Positions 1,980 to 44,961 of a stretch of 64,000 bases of DNA are shown here, one piece after another. The DNA is from Immundisolibacter cernigliae (GTDB taxonomy: Bacteria; Pseudomonadota; Gammaproteobacteria; Immundisolibacterales; Immundisolibacteraceae): positions 2,480,001 to 2,544,000 of the forward strand of contig NZ_CP014671.1 in NCBI RefSeq assembly GCF_001697225.1, given 5' to 3'. The notes under the pieces are model-generated. The model did no database searches and was not told the DNA's origin. It saw only the letters and a program-made list of their open reading frames with translations. The position numbers were made by a program, and so were the translations under genes. The number at the start of each line of letters is the position of its first letter. Position 1 is the stretch's first letter.

Positions 1980-2506
1980 ACCGCCGCTCGAAGCCGTGGT
2001 GGCGGCTGTTGCTGGCCGGCCCGCTGTTGCTGGCCGGTTGCGTCAGCGCGCCGCCGCCGCGGCCTGAGCCTCCGCCGCCGCCGCCCGTCAGTCAGGCGCC
2101 ACAGGCGCCCTTGCCGCCGGCGCAGCCCTTGCCCAGGCCGCAGCCGCCGACATCGGCCATCATCCGGCCCGGTCCGCCGCCGTCAGCGCCACCAGTCAGC
2201 GCCACCCCCGCGCCGCCGGCGCAGCCGACGGCCACCGGCTCGCTGGTCGCAATGGCCGACCGGCAGGCCGCCGCCGGCGACTATGCGTCCGCGGCGGCGC
2301 AGCTGGAGCGGGCGCTGCGCATCCGGCCGCAGGATCCGGTGCTGTGGCAGAAGCTGGCCTGGCTGCGCCTGCAAAACGGCGACTTCGATCAGGCGGCGAC
2401 GCTGGCGTCCCGCTCAGACTCCCTGGCCGGCAACAACGCTGCCGTGCGCGAACAGAACCGGCGCATCGTCGATCTGGCGCGCGCCCGCCAGCGGCCCAGC
2501 GAATAG
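1952..2506 (+). CDS. Proline-rich TPR-like lipoprotein
   Basis: Predicted outer-membrane lipoprotein of 184 residues. The N-terminus has basic residues, a hydrophobic stretch and a lipobox LLLAGC, followed by a long Pro-rich linker and a C-terminal part (from about residue 95) that resembles two tetratricopeptide helices pairs, for example AAAQLERALRIRPQDP. The ATG at 1952 lies inside the 3' end of mrcB, a 28-base overlap that implies translational coupling. Short TPR lipoproteins next to PBP1b are plausible cell-wall synthesis accessory proteins (as LpoB is for E. coli PBP1b), but there is no clear LpoB sequence match, so this role is inference. Confidence 0.85.
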   Translation: MALAAQAVLNRRSKPWWRLLLAGPLLLAGCVSAPPPRPEPPPPPPVSQAPQAPLPPAQPLPRPQPPTSAIIRPGPPPSAPPVSATPAPPAQPTATGSLVAMADRQAAAGDYASAAAQLERALRIRPQDPVLWQKLAWLRLQNGDFDQAATLASRSDSLAGNNAAVREQNRRIVDLARARQRPSE

Positions 2507-2508
2507 CC

Positions 2509-3123
2509 ATGAGCTCGCCGCCCGATCCGCCGTCCGGCGCGCCGGCCCAGTTGCAGGATTCGCAGTTTCTGGAGGCGTTGCGCGGGCAGATGCTGAACTT
2601 CGCCCGCCTGCAGCTGCGCGACGACGACCTGGCGCAGGACGTGGTGCAGGAATCGCTGCTCAGCGCGCTGAAGAACGCCGGCTCGTTTCGAGGCCAGGCG
2701 GCGTTTCGGACCTGGCTGTTCGCCATCGTCAAGAACAAGGTCATCGACGCCCTGCGCCAGCGCCAGCGCTGGGTCCAGCCCGACCAAAGCTCGGATGACG
2801 ACGACGCCGAGGAATGGTTGGACCGCCTGTTCGATCGGAACGGTCACTGGCAGCCCGCCCAGCAACCCCGGCCGTGGGGCGATCCGCAGCGCAGCTTCGA
2901 GGACAAGCGGTTCTGGGAGGTGTTCGCCATCTGCCTGGACCGCCTGCCGGCGCGCCAAGGGCGCTTTTTCATGATGCGCGAGTACCTTGGCCTGGAGGCG
3001 GACGAGATCTGTAAGAACGCCGGCCTGACGCGGACTAACCTGCATGTGATCCTGCACCGCGCCCGCTTGCGCCTGCGCGAGTGCCTGGAAAACGGCTGGT
3101 TCGATGGGGGGCGTGATGCTTGA
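2509..3123 (+). CDS. ECF-type RNA polymerase sigma factor
   Basis: Sigma-70 family protein of 204 residues with only regions 2 and 4, as in extracytoplasmic-function sigma factors. Region 2 shows DDLAQDVVQESLLSAL and FRTWLFAIVKNKVIDALRQ; region 4 shows LPARQGRFFMMREYLGL and a recognition helix near TRTNLHVILHRARLRLREC. A D/E-rich insertion (residues about 90-130) separates them. The ATG at 2509 starts two bases after the lipoprotein stop. The stop overlaps the start of the zinc-finger gene by 8 bases, the usual sigma/anti-sigma arrangement. Targets are unknown; the position downstream of PBP1b hints at envelope stress. Confidence 0.92.
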   Translation: MSSPPDPPSGAPAQLQDSQFLEALRGQMLNFARLQLRDDDLAQDVVQESLLSALKNAGSFRGQAAFRTWLFAIVKNKVIDALRQRQRWVQPDQSSDDDDAEEWLDRLFDRNGHWQPAQQPRPWGDPQRSFEDKRFWEVFAICLDRLPARQGRFFMMREYLGLEADEICKNAGLTRTNLHVILHRARLRLRECLENGWFDGGRDA

Positions 3124-3295
3124 TTGTCGTGAAGCTACCGGTTTGATGTCGCAGGCACGCGAGCGCCACCTGTCGCTGCGCGAGCGTGTGGCGCTGCGCC
3201 TGCACTGGGCCATGTGCAGTGCCTGCCGCCGCTTCGACCGGCAGATGGACGTGCTGCGCGCGGCGGCGCGCCGCTTTGCCAGCCGCTCCGACTAG
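3116..3295 (+). CDS. Zinc-finger anti-sigma-like small protein
   Basis: Protein of 59 residues with a putative H-x3-C-x2-C zinc-binding motif (HWAMCSAC), typical of the zf-HC2/ZAS anti-sigma family. No transmembrane segment is visible, so it would be a soluble regulator of the sigma factor encoded just upstream. The ATG at 3116 overlaps the sigma gene stop (ATGCTTGA) and gives the N-terminus MLDCREATGLMSQ normally seen in this family; an in-frame ATG at 3104 is possible but less likely. Function as a direct anti-sigma factor is inferred from motif and context. Confidence 0.85.
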   Translation: MLDCREATGLMSQARERHLSLRERVALRLHWAMCSACRRFDRQMDVLRAAARRFASRSD

Positions 3296-3341
3296 TGACG
3301 ACGCGCCGCCGCCCTGAGCTGCGGCGCACACTGGCTCAGCG

Positions 3342-3866
3342 TTAGGCCAGCCAGCGGCGCGCCAGCCAATGGTCGAGCGACACCACGCCCGGGCCCCGGG
3401 CGATCAGGTACAGCAGCACCGTGGCCCAGACGCCGTGGGTCGGGTAGGCGTCCGGATAAACGAACACCTGGATCACCAGCGTCATTCCCAGCAGGCCGAG
3501 CGCCGACAGGCGCGTGGCGAGGCCGAGCAGGATCAGCACCGGCAGCGCGTGTTCGGCCAGCGCCGCCAGGGTCGCCGCCCACAGCGGCGGGATCAGCGGC
3601 AGGGCGTATTCGTGCTCGAACAGGAATACCGCCGAGTCGGCCAGGCGCGGCCAGCCCAGCGTGAAGGTGCCCTGCACAAGGTCGATGGCGAAGCCCTCGA
3701 CCTTGGTCTGCCCCGACAGCCAGAACACGGCGGCGACCGAAAACCGCCCGAGCAGCGCGATCAGGCTGTGCGGGATGCGCGCGAACAGCGTGTTCAGGCG
3801 GGCGAGGCCGCGCAGCGGCGCGGCCAAAAGGCTGACCCGCGGCGGGCTTGCGGTATTCCCGCTCAT
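3342..3866 (-). CDS. DoxX-family membrane protein of bufferin operon
   Basis: Integral membrane protein of 174 residues with about four hydrophobic helices, matching the DoxX family. It is the last gene of a four-gene minus-strand operon with bufA, bufB and bufC; its ATG overlaps the bufC stop by 4 bases. DoxX proteins are often the fourth partner of DUF2282/DUF692/DUF2063 operons (HvfABCD in Haemophilus and Legionella nomenclature). Their molecular role there is not established; quinone-linked or disulfide-related membrane redox functions have been suggested for other DoxX proteins. Confidence 0.88.
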   Translation of the reverse strand: MSGNTASPPRVSLLAAPLRGLARLNTLFARIPHSLIALLGRFSVAAVFWLSGQTKVEGFAIDLVQGTFTLGWPRLADSAVFLFEHEYALPLIPPLWAATLAALAEHALPVLILLGLATRLSALGLLGMTLVIQVFVYPDAYPTHGVWATVLLYLIARGPGVVSLDHWLARRWLA

Positions 3867-4636
3867 GGGGTGTCTCCAGCGTGGCTCAAGTCGATCAGGG
3901 CGCCGCAGCGGATCAGTCCGGCGAGTGCGGCCGGCAGGTCGAAGGCGCAATCCGCGCCGCCGGCCGCCTCGACGGCGGCGCCCAGCGGTTGGCCGTCGAT
4001 CAGTGCGGCGGCGAAGCGGCCGGCCGCAGCCTCGACCGGGATCACCTCGACCTCCAGCTCACGGCACAGCACCCAGGCGGTTTCGGCGCAATCGAGGTCG
4101 ATCGCCGCCAGCTCGCCCGCCCCCTGATGCGCGGCCCAGACGGACACCATTGCGTAGGACGAGTGCAGCACGGCGAAGGAGGGGTGCAGGTGCAGGCGGG
4201 CGGCCGCCAGGTCGGCCGTATCGGCCAGCCGGGCGGCGAGGCCTGCGCCGGAAAGCGGCGGTGCGTCGGCGGCGTGCAGCGCCGTCAGGCGCAGCCACTC
4301 CAGGCGCGCGACATCGGGCAGATAGGGCAGGCCCTGCGCCGGCTCGAAGCGGGCGATGAAATCGGCGAAGCCGGCGCCGTACTCGGCCATGACCGGGCTG
4401 TGCGGGGGCGAGGCGCGCACGAAGCAGCGCCCCATGGCCTGGAAGAACGCCTCGCCCACCAGCGTGCGGGTGACCGGAAAGCTGTCCGCCAGCACGCCCA
4501 GCAGCGAGACCATGACGTTGTTGCGATAGACGGCCAGACGCGTCGCCGGGTCCGAGCCGTTCCAGGCGCACACATCGGCCGGCGGCGGCAGCGCCGGGTC
4601 GAGCAGCGCGCGGGCGAAGGCGGCCTGATCGATCAT
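3863..4636 (-). CDS. bufC: DUF2063 protein, bufferin maturation partner BufC
   Basis: Protein of 257 residues of the DUF2063 (HvfC/BufC) family. The N-terminal helical half contains the family-typical NGSDPATRLAVYRNNVM region, followed by LADSFPVTRTLVGEAFF; the C-terminal half is an Ala-rich alpha/beta domain. In bufferin and methanobactin-type systems this protein is the partner that binds the precursor peptide and presents it to the iron enzyme. The ATG at 4636 overlaps the bufB stop by 4 bases and the stop overlaps the DoxX start by 4, so the operon is translationally coupled. The ATG was chosen over an upstream frame extension that only shadows bufB. Confidence 0.9.
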   Translation of the reverse strand: MIDQAAFARALLDPALPPPADVCAWNGSDPATRLAVYRNNVMVSLLGVLADSFPVTRTLVGEAFFQAMGRCFVRASPPHSPVMAEYGAGFADFIARFEPAQGLPYLPDVARLEWLRLTALHAADAPPLSGAGLAARLADTADLAAARLHLHPSFAVLHSSYAMVSVWAAHQGAGELAAIDLDCAETAWVLCRELEVEVIPVEAAAGRFAAALIDGQPLGAAVEAAGGADCAFDLPAALAGLIRCGALIDLSHAGDTP

Positions 4637-5532
4637 GCCGGCAGCGCTTGGGCGTTGCGGCGCGCATCCTGCAGGATGCGCTCGGCCTGGCGCGCCTCGG
4701 CCAGCAGCACGGCGAGGGCGGGAATGTCGTTGTCGCGCTCGATCAGCGTCGGCATCGGGCCCACACGCTCGATTGCCTGGGCATAGAGCGCCCACACCGC
4801 CTGGGCGACCGGCGCGCCATGGTTGTCGATGAGCAGGGGATCCCTGGCGCCATCCACGGCCTCGGCATGGCCGGCGAGATGGATCTCGCCCACCGCGTGC
4901 AGCGGCAGGGCGGCCAGTTCGCTCAGGGGGTCGCGGTGGTGGTTGACGCAGGACACATACAGGTTGTTCACGTCCAGCAGCAGGCCGCAGCCGGTGCGTC
5001 GGACCACCTCGCCGATGAAGGCCGCCTCGGGCAGGCTCGAGGCGCGGCTTTCAAGATAAGTGGCCGGATTTTCCAGCAGCATGCGCCGACCCAGCCGCTC
5101 CTGGACGCGCTCGACGTGCTCGCAGACCCGCGCCAGCGCGGCCGTGTCGTAGACCACCGGCAGCAGATCGTTCAGGCACACCGCGCCATCGCGCGACCAG
5201 GCCAGGTGCTCGGAAACCCACGCCGGCTGGTAACGCGCCAGCAGCCGTGCCAGGCGATCGAGATGGGCCGGGTCCAGATCGGCGCCGCCGATCGACAGGC
5301 CCACGCCGTGCACCGACAGCGGATAGTGTTCGGCGATGCGCCCCAGGTAATGGTGGAAGGGGCCACCGGCGCCGAAGTAGTTCTCGGCATGGATTTCGAA
5401 AAAGCGAAGCGCCGGGCGGCGCTCCAGGATGTCGTGGAAATGCCGGGGTTTCAGGCCCAGGCCCGCCAAGGGTTGGGACGGGCAGGCGGGCGCCGCGGGG
5501 CGGCATCTCGCCTGCAAGGACGGCGCCGTCAT
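4633..5532 (-). CDS. bufB: MNIO (DUF692) iron oxidase BufB, bufferin maturase
   Basis: Multinuclear non-haem iron oxidative enzyme of the DUF692/HvfB family, a TIM-barrel protein of 299 residues. In characterised relatives it converts cysteines of the precursor peptide into heterocycles (thiooxazoles in bufferins). Candidate metal ligands sit in conserved motifs: FFEIHAENYFG, SVHGVGLSIGG, SEHLAW, LLENPATYL, DVNNLYVSCVNH and GEIHLAGH. It lies 29 bases downstream of bufA and overlaps bufC by 4 bases. Family identification is strong; the actual modification is inferred from the family. Confidence 0.93.
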   Translation of the reverse strand: MTAPSLQARCRPAAPACPSQPLAGLGLKPRHFHDILERRPALRFFEIHAENYFGAGGPFHHYLGRIAEHYPLSVHGVGLSIGGADLDPAHLDRLARLLARYQPAWVSEHLAWSRDGAVCLNDLLPVVYDTAALARVCEHVERVQERLGRRMLLENPATYLESRASSLPEAAFIGEVVRRTGCGLLLDVNNLYVSCVNHHRDPLSELAALPLHAVGEIHLAGHAEAVDGARDPLLIDNHGAPVAQAVWALYAQAIERVGPMPTLIERDNDIPALAVLLAEARQAERILQDARRNAQALPA

Positions 5533-5561
5533 GACCGCGCTGCGCCTGCCCGCCGACGGGT

Positions 5562-5870
5562 TTACTTGTCCTTTTCCGCGAACGCGGCGAGCTGGCCGAA
5601 GCCGGTCGGCGAGGTGGGCGAGGCGGTCTGCCCGCAGCTGCCCTTGGGCACCAGCTTCCAGGCGTTGCCCTGGTGGTCACGCACCGAGGTGCCGGCGCAG
5701 GTGGTGCCGGGGCCGGCGGCGCAGTCATTCTTGCCCTTCAGCGCCACGCCGAAGCACTTTTCCTGGTCGGCCGCAGCCTGTGCCGGTGCGGCAGCCAGGC
5801 TCAGGGCGAGTCCGAAGGCGGCGGCAAGGCCGGCGCCGGCGAGCGTCAGGGAGGGGTTGTCGCGTTTCAT
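5562..5870 (-). CDS. bufA: Bufferin precursor peptide (DUF2282/HvfA family)
   Basis: Predicted exported precursor of 102 residues. The signal peptide (about 1-32, ending AAAPAQA) is followed by a core with exactly four Cys at positions 39, 50, 58 and 79 within [19 protein letters not shown] and KGSC, the pattern of DUF2282 bufferin precursors. After the last Cys comes a Thr/Ser/Pro-rich tail ending AFAEKDK. Bufferins are ribosomally made, post-translationally modified peptides that chelate copper in the periplasm. An AGGA lies about 8 bases upstream of the ATG. First gene of the operon; no metal-responsive operator was recognised upstream. Confidence 0.92.
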
Positions 5871-6175
5871 GGGCGTATTCCTGGTTGGAGGGATGTGACG
5901 GCGAGCCGTGCGCTATTCCGACGGCCTGCGTGCAGTAGACGCCGCCCACGCGGATGTCTTACAGGCCGTCCCTTGAGTTCCGAAGCGGCTGGCGGCACGC
6001 AGCGGGCGCTCCTGCCCAACAGGTACGGCATCCCGTGTCCGGCGAAAACGGCCCGCTGGCGTCGATGCCCTCGGCGCGCGCCCGCGCCACCGCCGATGCG
6101 TGGGCGTGTACCGCGCCGGGGGAGCTCAAGAAATGCCACGGACGGCATTTTTCAGCGTCTCCCAGCCGGCCCGGG
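5871..6175. other. Intergenic region upstream of bufA
   Basis: About 305 bases between bufA and htrA. It must hold the bufferin promoter on the minus strand, but no convincing -35/-10 pair or metal-regulator operator was recognised. The right end (6102-6163) is a copy of a 62-base repeat also found at 44876-44937, whose hairpin probably ends htrA transcription. The open frame over 5867-6148 (minus) is Arg/Pro-rich, covers the bufA ribosome-binding site and was not accepted as a gene. Confidence 0.6.
6102..6163. repeat. 62-base intergenic repeat, copy 1, with hairpin
   Basis: The last 33 bases (6131-6163) are identical to 44905-44937, and the first 14 bases (6102-6115) are identical to 44876-44889, with the same total length and a partly diverged middle. 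It contains the palindrome AAATGCC-ACGGAC-GGCATTT, an AT-flanked hairpin. In both copies it sits just past the stop codon of a minus-strand gene (here htrA, 13 bases away), which suits a transcription terminator. The arms are less symmetric here than in copy 2. Confidence 0.75.
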
Positions 6176-7327
6176 TCAGTTTTCCGCCTGCAGGGTGACG
6201 GTCACGGTATGCCGTTGCCCGCCGCGCAGCAGACCGATCTGCACCACGTCACCGACGGCGAAATCGTCGAGCCGGGCGAGCAGGCGCGCCACCGAATCCA
6301 CCGGCTTGCCGGCCACGGCGATGATGATGTCGCCCGCCGCCATGCGCCCGTCGGGCGTCAAGCGCAGCGGTATGAGGCCGGCGGCCGCCGCCGGCGAGCC
6401 CGGCGCGACATCCAGCACGAACACGCCCTCGATGCCCAGCAGCCGGCTCAGGCGCGCGTTGACGCCTGCGTCGACTTCCATACCCAGCGCCGGGCGCGTG
6501 TATTTGCCGTGCCGGATCAGCTGCGGCACCACGCGCATGAGCGTGTCGACCGGAACGGCGAAACCAATGCCGGCCGAGGCGCCCGAGGGGCTGTAAATGG
6601 CGGTGTTGATGCCGATCAGCCGACCGGCCGAATCCAGCAGCGGTCCGCCCGAATTGCCCGGGTTGATGGCGGCATCGGTCTGGATCAGATGCTCGACGAT
6701 GCTGCCGCCCTCTTGCGCCGGCAGGCTGCGGTCGAGCGCCGAGACGATGCCTGTGGTCAAGGTCCAGTCGAGTCCGAACGGGTTGCCGATGGCAAACACC
6801 TTCTGCCCGACCTGCAGGTCGTGGCTGGTGCCGATCGGCACCGGCGGAGGCGACTTGAAAGCAACGCCTATCCTGAGCACGGCGATGTCGTGCGCTGGGC
6901 TTGCCCCCACCAGGCGCGCCGGATAGTCGCGCCCGTCGGCCAGGCGCACCGTGGCGCGCGCAGCGCCCTGGATGACGTGAAAATTGGTCACCACGTGCCC
7001 CGCCTCGTCCCACACGAAGCCCGAGCCGGTGCCGCGCGGCACGGCAAACACGTTGCGCGTCCAGAAATCCTGCACCAGCTCGGAGGTACTGATGTAGACC
7101 ACCGAGTCGCGGGTGCGCTCGAACAGTTCGATGACGGCACGCTCGTCCGCACCGAGCGCGCCGCGTGGCGTGATCGTGCGCTGCTCGCCCTGCCAGGCAG
7201 CCATGCCGGCTGGTTGCCAGGTGCCCAGCAGCAGGCAGCCGAGCAGGGCCGACAGCCGCAAACCGCGCCCGCGGCGGCGTTTCAGGTCCGCTGAGCCGGC
7301 ACGCCCGATGGCGCGCTGATCATCCAC
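6176..7327 (-). CDS. HtrA/Deg-family periplasmic serine protease
   Basis: Trypsin-like protease with one PDZ domain, 383 residues, anchored or secreted through an N-terminal hydrophobic segment (about 23-44). The catalytic triad is visible: His117 in NFHVI, Asp147 in HDIAVLRI and Ser226 in GNSGGP. The PDZ domain covers about residues 275-375. A single PDZ makes it more like DegS/AlgW or HhoB than DegP. The start is a GTG 14 bases after cbpM, chosen because the membrane segment must be included; no strong ribosome-binding site is visible. Probably cotranscribed with cbpA-cbpM and heat inducible. Confidence 0.92.
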   Translation of the reverse strand: MDDQRAIGRAGSADLKRRRGRGLRLSALLGCLLLGTWQPAGMAAWQGEQRTITPRGALGADERAVIELFERTRDSVVYISTSELVQDFWTRNVFAVPRGTGSGFVWDEAGHVVTNFHVIQGAARATVRLADGRDYPARLVGASPAHDIAVLRIGVAFKSPPPVPIGTSHDLQVGQKVFAIGNPFGLDWTLTTGIVSALDRSLPAQEGGSIVEHLIQTDAAINPGNSGGPLLDSAGRLIGINTAIYSPSGASAGIGFAVPVDTLMRVVPQLIRHGKYTRPALGMEVDAGVNARLSRLLGIEGVFVLDVAPGSPAAAAGLIPLRLTPDGRMAAGDIIIAVAGKPVDSVARLLARLDDFAVGDVVQIGLLRGGQRHTVTVTLQAEN

Positions 7328-23737: not shown

Positions 23738-23864
23738 GTAGGAGCGCAGCTGCACTGTGCGATTCAGCGCGCGGCGGCAGCGTGGCATCGGTCGTACCCG
23801 ACCATCGCCCGGCATAGCCGGGCTCCCACAGGGCGCACCATCGCCCGGCATAGCTGGGCTCTAC
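23738..23864. repeat. REP-like palindromic elements (cluster 1)
   Basis: Contains GTAGGAGCGCAGCTGC (23738 on), then CATCGCCCGGCATAGCCGGG (23803 on) and a second copy ATCGCCCGGCATAGCTGGG (23840 on), each ending in a CTCC-type tail. CCCGGC-ATA-GCCGGG forms a hairpin. The same modules recur at 27886-27972, 30468-30580 and 33312-33365, always between genes. Here they lie between a convergent methyltransferase and glycosyltransferase. Confidence 0.8.
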
Positions 23865-30467: not shown

Positions 30468-30580
30468 GTGCAGGAGCGCAGCAGCGCTGCGCGATGATCG
30501 CCCGGCGTAGCCGGGCTCCTACAATTGATCGCCACCGTCGTGTGTCGCTGGGGCATCGCCCGGCGCAGCCGGGCTCCTAC
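30468..30580. repeat. REP-like palindromic elements (cluster 3)
   Basis: CAGGAGCGCAGCAGCGCTGCG (30471 on) is followed by ATCGCCCGGCGTAGCCGGG ending in CTCCTAC (30522), then a further ATCGCCCGGCGCAGCCGGG-CTCCTAC (30555-30580). The modules match clusters 1, 2 and 4. They lie between the divergent ahcY riboswitch leader and the FemAB-like gene; any start of that gene upstream of 30580 would translate repeat sequence. Confidence 0.8.
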
Positions 30581-30638
30581 AGTTTTTCGGTGGTGTGCCC
30601 CTTCGTTGCTGACTCGAATCCATCCGGTGCCAGCCCGC

Positions 30639-33311: not shown

Positions 33312-33365
33312 GTAGGAGCCCGGTTGTGCCGGGCGATCCATCGCGCAGCGAAGCTGCGCTCCTAC
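33312..33365. repeat. REP-like palindromic element (cluster 4)
   Basis: GTAGGAGCCCGGTTGTGCCGGGCGAT (33312-33337) and ATCGCGCAGCGAAGCTGCGCTCCTAC (33340-33365) are the same two modules as in clusters 1 to 3 but in the opposite order and orientation, together forming a head-to-head pair. It lies between bpt and the monooxygenase gene. Confidence 0.8.
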
Positions 33366-43823: not shown

Positions 43824-43955
43824 GCGCCGGATTTTTCCGGTAAACGGCGTGCCGTGTTTGCAATCGAGCCCGATCTACCGGTGGTGTGCGATCCTTGCGG
43901 TGTCGGGCAAGGCTCCGATGGATAACACGACTTGCAGGGACGGAGGAGGCTGGAC

Positions 43956-44783
43956 ATGGCAGACATGCAGGGCAAGGTGTGCGTGGTCACCGGCGCCAAT
44001 TCAGGCATCGGCAAGGCGACCGCGCAGGGATTGGCCGCCGCCGGCGCCACGGTGCTGATGGTGTGCCGGGACCGCGCTCGCGGCGCAGCGGCCGAGCAGG
44101 ACATCCAGGCCGCTACCGGCAATGCGGCGGTCGAGTTGTGGCAGGCCGATCTTGCCTCGCTGGCCGACATCCGACGCCTGGCGGGCGAGCTTCTGGTGGC
44201 CCATCCGGTCATCCACGTGCTGATCAACAATGCCGGCGTGATGGTGGAAAAGCGCCAGATGTCCGCGGACGGTTTCGAGCTGCAGTTCGCGGTCAATCAC
44301 CTGGCACCGTTCCTGCTCACCCGGCTGCTGGAGCCGGCGCTGGCCGCCGGCGCGCCGGCGCGCGTGGTCAACGTCAGCTCGCGCGTGCACAGCATGGGGC
44401 ACATCGATTTCGACGACCTGCAAAGCACGCGCAAGTACAAGATGTTCGCCGCCTATGGGCGCTCGAAACTGGCCTGCGTCATGGCCACCTACGACCTTGC
44501 CGAACGCTGGCAAGCGCTGGGGATTACGGTGAACTGCCTGCACCCGGGCGTGATCGATACCAACCTTGGCGGTATGCCCGGCTTCATCAAGAAATTGCTG
44601 CCCAAGGCGGACAAGGGCGCTCGCACGTCACTTTACCTGGCCACGGCGCCCGAGGTGGCCGATGTCACCGGGCAGTATTTCAGCGGCTGCAAGCCCGCCA
44701 AATCGTCAGCCGAGTCGCACGACCGCGCCGTGCGCGCGCGCCTGTGGCAGGAAACGGAACGCATGGTGGGTCTGGTGGCCTGA
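43956..44783 (+). CDS. SDR oxidoreductase, retinol dehydrogenase-like
   Basis: Short-chain dehydrogenase of 275 residues. The cofactor motif is GANSGIGKATAQ, with NNAGVM, active-site Ser in NVSSR and the catalytic Tyr-x3-Lys in AAYGRSK. HPGVIDTNLGG and the overall layout fit the WW-oxidoreductase/retinol dehydrogenase-like group. GGAGGAGG precedes the ATG at 43956. Convergent with the dioxygenase genes; its substrate is unknown. Confidence 0.9.
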   Translation: MADMQGKVCVVTGANSGIGKATAQGLAAAGATVLMVCRDRARGAAAEQDIQAATGNAAVELWQADLASLADIRRLAGELLVAHPVIHVLINNAGVMVEKRQMSADGFELQFAVNHLAPFLLTRLLEPALAAGAPARVVNVSSRVHSMGHIDFDDLQSTRKYKMFAAYGRSKLACVMATYDLAERWQALGITVNCLHPGVIDTNLGGMPGFIKKLLPKADKGARTSLYLATAPEVADVTGQYFSGCKPAKSSAESHDRAVRARLWQETERMVGLVA

Positions 44784-44833
44784 GGGCAGCGCTGATTTAT
44801 TCAGCGCTGCCCGTCCGGGGCAGGATGCCCCGG

Positions 44834-44864
44834 CATGAAGCAAGCACGAAGTGCTTGCTTCATG
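44834..44864. repeat. Perfect 14-bp inverted repeat
   Basis: CATGAAGCAAGCAC (44834-44847), loop GAA, GTGCTTGCTTCATG (44851-44864): a perfect 14-bp stem with a 3-base loop in the gap after the SDR. It precedes the 62-base repeat copy. Such a stem without T-tract may help end or protect the SDR transcript. Confidence 0.85.
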
Positions 44865-44875
44865 GAGCCCGTCGC

Positions 44876-44937
44876 GGGCGTGTACCGCGACGAGGCGAGC
44901 TGAAAAATGCCACGGACGGCATTTTTCAGCGTCTCCC
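44876..44937. repeat. 62-base intergenic repeat, copy 2
   Basis: Same length and layout as 6102-6163: identical over 44905-44937 and over 44876-44889, with a diverged middle. Again it ends just before the stop of a minus-strand gene (24 bases from the dioxygenase small-subunit stop). No coding capacity. Two copies almost 39 kb apart suggest a dispersed terminator-like family. Confidence 0.8.
44899..44930. terminator. Bidirectional terminator inside the 62-base repeat
   Basis: GCTGAAAAATGCC (44899-44911), loop ACGGAC, GGCATTTTTCAGC (44918-44930): a perfect 13-bp stem with A/T runs in the arms, between convergent genes. It could end transcription from both sides. Confidence 0.65.
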
Positions 44938-44961
44938 TGAGCGGACCTGCCCGCGGCCCGC

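Follow-up and report, generated by a model that had tools for sequence, protein, structure and literature searches.

The window, the whole 64,000-nucleotide stretch of Immundisolibacter cernigliae DNA analysed here, contains two related intergenic sequences that adjoin the stops of minus-strand genes at 6176 and 44962. A first-pass annotation had described them as a 62-base repeat lying beside these stops, and both statements are borne out: bases 6131-6163 and 44905-44937, the 33-base ends, are identical (repeat family D10), as are the first 14 bases, and an ungapped comparison of 6102-6163 with 44876-44937 gives 52 matching bases of 62. The repeat is not, however, a complete element. The stretch 44876-44937 is the last 62 bases, or right end, of a larger element of ~154 bases (44784-44937), whose other end abuts the TGA stop of a plus-strand gene (43932-44783). 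BLAST with the full element recovered a copy at 6099-6163 with 91% identity (E 6.8e-18), so the likeness between the two sites is not due to chance. The sequence at 6102-6163 (plus strand) is thus the broken-off end of an element whose whole copy is 44784-44937: a 5'-truncated relic with the end of hairpin 4, hairpin 5 (6124-6156, GGA at 6140-6142) and the right end, from which everything further left has been lost. A 62-base consensus pattern searched against the window with up to 3 mismatches allowed found nothing, since the differences between the two copies exceed that limit. When the 23-base hairpin core was searched in the genome with up to 3 mismatches allowed, it was found in four places, two exact and two with 2 mismatches, and the backwards-read control gave none.

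The relic is bordered on its left by a fragment (6033-6095) that resembles part of a pdxA gene and is 90% identical to G000:2821633-2821695, a place identified as PdxA by Pfam (PF04166, 141.3 bits). In the sister genome G001, the homologue of 996-2488 joins the homologue of 6153 onward directly, indicating that the relic-carrying segment is absent at that place. This segment, 2489-6152, amounts to about 3.7 kb here and includes a DoxX gene (about 3342-3890), a DUF2063 gene (3863-4795) and a gene for an MbnB/TglH/ChrH-type enzyme (4633-5532), a set that recalls a RiPP/metal-buffering operon. Elsewhere in the window, an SAH riboswitch on the minus strand (RF01057, 30342-30407, 54.1 bits) is the sole Rfam match at gathering score, and other short, REP-like palindromic repeats of the GTAG/GGGCGAT type lie at 23738-23861, 30494-30589 and 33328-33365.

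The full copy at 44784-44937 forms a series of five hairpins separated by hardly any spacer, at -110.1 kcal/mol compared with a shuffle mean of -58.8 (z -13.3). We call plus the strand on which the loops of hairpins 2 and 5 carry GGA; the opposite strand folds into the same five helices. H1 (44784-44812) is a palindrome formed from the left terminal inverted repeat, in which GGCAGCGCTGATTTATTC matches the end of an IS5-family insertion sequence (IS) at 16 of 18 bases. H2 (44815-44833) has the motif CAGGATG with GGA in its loop at 44823-44825, H3 (44834-44864) has a stem of 14 bp, H4 (44867-44896) has the loop GCGTGTA, and H5 (44899-44930) has the loop ACGGAC with GGA at 44914-44916. The 3' side of H5 runs into the right terminal inverted repeat, which matches the IS end at 10 of 11 bases.

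Comparison with G001 indicates that this copy is an insertion. In that genome the same two flanking genes, identified by Pfam as a short-chain dehydrogenase and a ring-hydroxylating dioxygenase beta subunit, are separated by a single CCTGAG, and the element is absent. The window has 157 extra bases with CCTGAG on both sides (44779-44784 and 44936-44941), from which we deduce a target duplication of 4 to 6 bases. The TGA stop of the dehydrogenase gene (44781-44783), which lies inside the left target copy, was retained after insertion. Mobility of the window copy relative to the sister genome is therefore well supported.

The ~154 bases leave no room for a transposase gene, and none is present. 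Among 14 DDE_Tnp_1 matches in the genome, 12 represent one 330-aa transposase of the IS5 family (NF033581, 325.7 bits against a cut-off of 140; also PF01609 and PF05598). The resident IS that encodes it is 1,220 bp long, starts with GGAAACGCTGATTTATTC and carries a near inverse at its other end. At ten loci compared, most target duplications of this IS were clean and of 4 bases (CTAG, CTAA, TTAG, ATAA, TTAA), and two copies (L134, L138) differed at the left. Similarly, in the congener G002, elements L047, L048, L050, L051 and L055 start with the same 18 bases, GGAACCGCTGATTTATTC, as the IS L121, a likeness that concerns one end. The near-identical ends and the 4-base duplications of the 1,220-bp IS argue for an IS5-type miniature inverted-repeat transposable element (MITE). 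We are almost certain that the element is a MITE, and a transposase of the resident IS5-family kind most likely moved it, judging from these sequence matches.

Of 61 elements with model-defined borders, 26 combined an exact 4-base duplication with ends that were inverted at 7 or more of 12 bases. The duplications were TTAA (7), CTAG (6), TTAG (6), ATAG (2) and one each of CTAA, ATAA, TGAA, ACCA and CAAG, so that NTAR describes 23 of the 26. Insertion at targets with TAA or TAG in them would account for the nearness of copies to stop codons. The ends fall into no fewer than four kinds: sorted roughly by pattern, the 61 elements included 29 as GGAAnCnCTGA-like, 8 as CAGGCTGTTGA-like, 4 as GAGAGCTTG and 2 as GGGCACCTCGA, and the 18 left unsorted include many evident variants of the GGAAnCnCTGA-like kind. 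A search for an IS with CAGGCTGTTGAAAAAC-type ends sought PF01609 in 8 genomes, 4 of which had it, and no IS was found for the other end types. Among 16 loci examined from searches of three genera, one further IS, L260 in G309 (GGAACCTCTGATTAATT, duplication ATAA), had IS5-type ends of this sort; none of the same 16 carried CAGGCTG ends.

The genome search for further copies, which the first-pass annotation had proposed, did find them. The own genome has four near-full copies including that of the window, together with partial ones; it also has a second subfamily, whose stems differ, and a third one (L018). Two places (L026, L032) consist of an H1 palindrome alone, about 29 bases long, which may have arisen from the element by internal deletion or be a minimal end-to-end copy, and in L029, L031 and L034 REP-like palindromes are apparently inserted into hairpin 4, giving nested repeats. 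A covariance model, R1, was built from 26 copies and scored the window copy at 175.8 bits. At E<=1e-5, R1 matched 40 times in the own genome, a number in which a single place may be counted once per strand (the listing has 14 places at 68.9 bits or more), 11 times in G001 and at least 150 times in G002. It had no match in four sister-genus genomes or in one genome of the order's second family. In G002, L307-L311 are tandem arrays of an H2-H5 unit without a new H1, in which each unit keeps both GGA hairpins.

In a class-wide sample, R1 matched in 35 of 369 gammaproteobacterial genomes at E<=1e-7, and the best hit reached at least 55 bits in 31 of the 369, belonging to 23 families; eight candidates were scored per genome, so that these counts are lower bounds. 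The 55-bit floor was chosen with regard to the opposite-strand readings of true elements, which reach 53.8 bits with R1, and it left G175, G252, G253 and G316 out of the carrier count. Searching with a pattern that spans H2 and the first part of H3 gave matches in at least 118 contigs. The 80 contigs listed had gammaproteobacterial or unspecific names, among them Sedimenticola, Candidatus Thiosymbion, an Olavius symbiont, Candidatus Muproteobacteria and many MAGs. Three MAG contigs titled Klebsiella pneumoniae (L148, L195, L207) carry elements of the Sedimenticola/MAG type, and the title is probably wrong. L223, L225 and L257 are longer variants in which H4 has an extra apical stem. One candidate, L187 (Algicola), has only H2 and looks like a chance match. 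The window copy had no match among plasmids or phages, two relatives had none among plasmids, and the H2-H3 pattern had none among viral contigs.

We then asked how the fold is maintained. In 26 distinct copies aligned with MAFFT, 94.1% of cells pair, and both-sided changes occur at 23 of 60 pairs compared with 9.6 in shuffles, which keep relatedness in, and 2 to 10 when the structure is slid, which removes relatedness. The covariation score was 0.202 compared with 0.085. The structure tested was taken from one of the 26 aligned sequences. The data thus support maintenance of the interior stems by compensatory change. Class-wide, the arms vary widely (41 distinct 5' arms among 51 H3 hairpins, 39 among 45 H4 hairpins). 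RNAalifold on the class-wide alignment A3 (35 of 36 intact elements; L154:3327-3482, whose H5 looked spurious, was excluded) kept only H2 and five pairs of another helix, and for this reason we claim formal covariation for alignment A1 only.

The mismatches in the stems distinguish the two strands, since an AC mismatch on the GGA strand is a GU pair on the other. Class-wide, H3-H5 stems have 57 GU and 13 AC on the GGA strand (binomial 1e-7), and the window subfamily has 21 and 4 (binomial 9e-4); both tests ignore relatedness. The bias is weaker, 39 GU to 25 AC, when all cells of a fixed alignment are counted with decayed copies included. The preference for GU over AC points to selection on one strand and, most simply, on its RNA. 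We consider it likely that selection has acted on the RNA of the GGA strand.

The loops differ in what they conserve. We surveyed 56 non-redundant elements (of 103 with enough flank) that had been found through H2 and the first bases of H3, a search in which H5 played no part. GGA was present in the H5 loop of 37 of the 40 elements that had an H5 hairpin, in 2 of 52 H3 loops and in 1 of 46 H4 loops; on the opposite strand the corresponding numbers were 0, 0 and 1. This survey supersedes a count at rough positions, which gave GGA in 77 of 79 with H5 undetected in 112 of 191. Among 26 class-wide loci found with R1, GGA occurred in 25 of 26 H5, 18 of 25 H2, 0 of 25 H3 and 0 of 24 H4 loops, a count that is partly circular, as R1 knows the loops, and that misses some H2 owing to a fixed window. 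The evidence for H2 is itself partly circular, as GGA was in the search pattern or the model. Seven full-length copies in the own genome were found via H1 alone (L020, L021, L023, L029, L030, L034, L039; L038 was left out), and read by eye, all 7 had GGA in H2 and 6 of the 7 had it in H5. The H3 loop is in many cases GNRA-like, and there is conservation in the H4 loops too.

The motif in H2 resembles a known protein-binding site. The available text of PMC4347634 gives the SELEX consensus for CsrA as RUACARGGAUGU, with ACA and GGA fully conserved. In 49 of 191 elements H2 contains the exact sequence ACARGGATGT, and hence the SELEX core as an extended motif; most of the 191 had been found with a pattern that included GGATG but neither the outer A and T nor the R. 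Matches to known CsrA-binding families were few. The window had no match to clan CL00106 at gathering score, and permissive Rfam scans of three sets of loci (7, 20 and 20, with overlap between the two sets of 20) gave scattered weak hits and a single RsmW hit (clan CL00106; 41.9 bits, E 0.0014, gathering score 52), so that only 1 of 20 loci matched a CsrA-binding family, below the gathering score. A csrA gene is present in 34 of 36 genomes (the 35 matched at E<=1e-7 and G002) and was not found in G130 or G202, whose fragmented assemblies are 95% and 98% complete; its presence says little, as csrA is so common in the class. The paired H2 and H5 loops look like putative CsrA docking sites, and we regard CsrA as a quite possible ligand.

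A consensus scan limited to the sigma-70 consensus gave no promoter-like site at the window copy. On this basis the element would have to rely on read-through. To see how copies lie relative to genes, we predicted genes with a home-made hexamer score and placed 115 of the 191 elements. The others were set aside: 46 lay at the edge of a contig, 13 overlapped predicted genes, 10 were distant from any gene and 7 lacked a pair of flanks. Co-directional genes flanked 28 elements oriented with them and 34 oriented against them, at median distances of 10 and 25.5 nt from the end of the upstream gene; 32 elements lay between convergent genes and 21 between divergent genes. Given this lack of bias, it is unlikely that most fixed copies do an orientation-dependent job for their neighbours. 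The target of selection seems to be the RNA of amplifying copies or an effect in trans.

Taken together, we judge it on balance probable that the element is an IS5-driven MITE carrying a compact structured RNA with paired CsrA-type hairpins, transcribed by read-through and serving as a putative CsrA ligand. Its ends match those of a resident multi-copy IS5-family IS, and it would transpose in non-autonomous fashion, mostly into NTAR. Transcription would come by read-through from neighbouring genes, and the RNA would bind a CsrA/RsmA dimer via H2 and H5, two GGA hairpins flanking two long ones in a layout that such a dimer could bridge. The element might then serve as a dispersed decoy for CsrA or be a transcript that CsrA protects, and CsrA binding may have helped either the element or the host to retain the fold. 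A bolder and more tentative version is that this is a mobile family of putative CsrA-binding RNAs across Gammaproteobacteria, with ends swapped according to the IS5-type transposase available and Csr titrated by copy number.

It is conceivable, if somewhat unlikely, that the RNA fold is selected for a partner other than CsrA, such as a ribonuclease or some different RNA-binding protein, or because it has a part in how the element itself transposes. The strand bias and loop conservation do not name a ligand, the GNRA-like H3 loops and conserved H4 loops would suit another partner as well, and csrA was not found in two of the genomes. However, the agreement of the extended H2 motif with the CsrA SELEX core argues for CsrA, and the resident IS lacks CANGGATG on either strand, which argues that the H2 motif is not something the transposase needs. 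We find it unlikely that the element is a plain MITE, with hairpins that are palindromic filler or at most padding that stabilises upstream mRNA from either strand, and with loops conserved through descent from a few founders. The inverted ends, duplications and empty site, the equal folding of both strands and the unbiased orientation would all be expected of it, but compensatory change in the stems, the excess of GU on one strand and the retention of GGA in H5 and not in H3 or H4, across many genomes with different stems, are not.

The first-pass annotation had offered a dispersed terminator and a fossil mobile repeat as explanations, and it is the second that stands: the relic at 6102-6163 fits a fossil, and the copy at 44784-44937, with its inverted ends, target duplication, empty site and matching IS ends, fits a mobile repeat. 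A dispersed bidirectional terminator is very improbable. The arms of H5 contain an A tract and a T tract and copies lie near gene ends, but a consensus scan gave no terminator-like site at either place in the window, a scan that wants a T run after the stem and would miss the one at H5, which lies within the hairpin arm. Furthermore, divergent genes flank 21 of the 115 placed elements, orientation to co-directional neighbours is unbiased, and H2-H4 and the GGA loops would be left unexplained. That this is a REP/RAYT-type palindrome family can practically be dismissed, for although GTAG-type palindromes also occur in the genome, full copies are ~154 bases rather than 20-40, no GTAG or CGTC tag is seen at the ends listed, and the inverted ends come with a target duplication.

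We found no description of the element in Rfam 15 or in the largely open-access literature searched; for the annotation of RNAs and of ISs it would represent a new family. Were CsrA to bind it, transposon load would be linked to a global regulator, and the Csr networks of many environmental bacteria would need re-reading. ERIC, BOX, RUP and Correia elements are structured non-coding repeats, some of them moved by an IS in trans; to our knowledge, none has paired CsrA-type loops. TwoAYGGAY RNA, named for its two AYGGAY motifs, is reported from gamma-Proteobacteria among others in the available part of PMC2864571; its likeness to our element is one of name and taxa, and it had no match in Rfam scans of 20 loci. 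GTAG/CGTC-tagged REPs, as characterized in the available part of PMC3733652, are dispersed intergenic palindromes of 20-40 bp tagged at one end; the element is likewise dispersed and intergenic, but it is ~154 bases long and shows no such tag in the ends listed. Like the CsrA/RsmA-binding small RNAs CsrB, RsmW and RsmZ (CL00106), it has paired hairpins with GGA in the loop. Unlike them, it is mobile and dispersed, has no promoter that we could see, scores below the Rfam gathering thresholds and is a putative CsrA binder. The element is like IS5-family MITEs in being short and non-coding, with inverted ends and 4-base duplications as in the resident IS. MITEs are usually treated as empty shells; in contrast, this one has at least four kinds of ends and an interior that is a covarying, RNA-like fold of five hairpins, with conserved loops that are paired and of regulator type.
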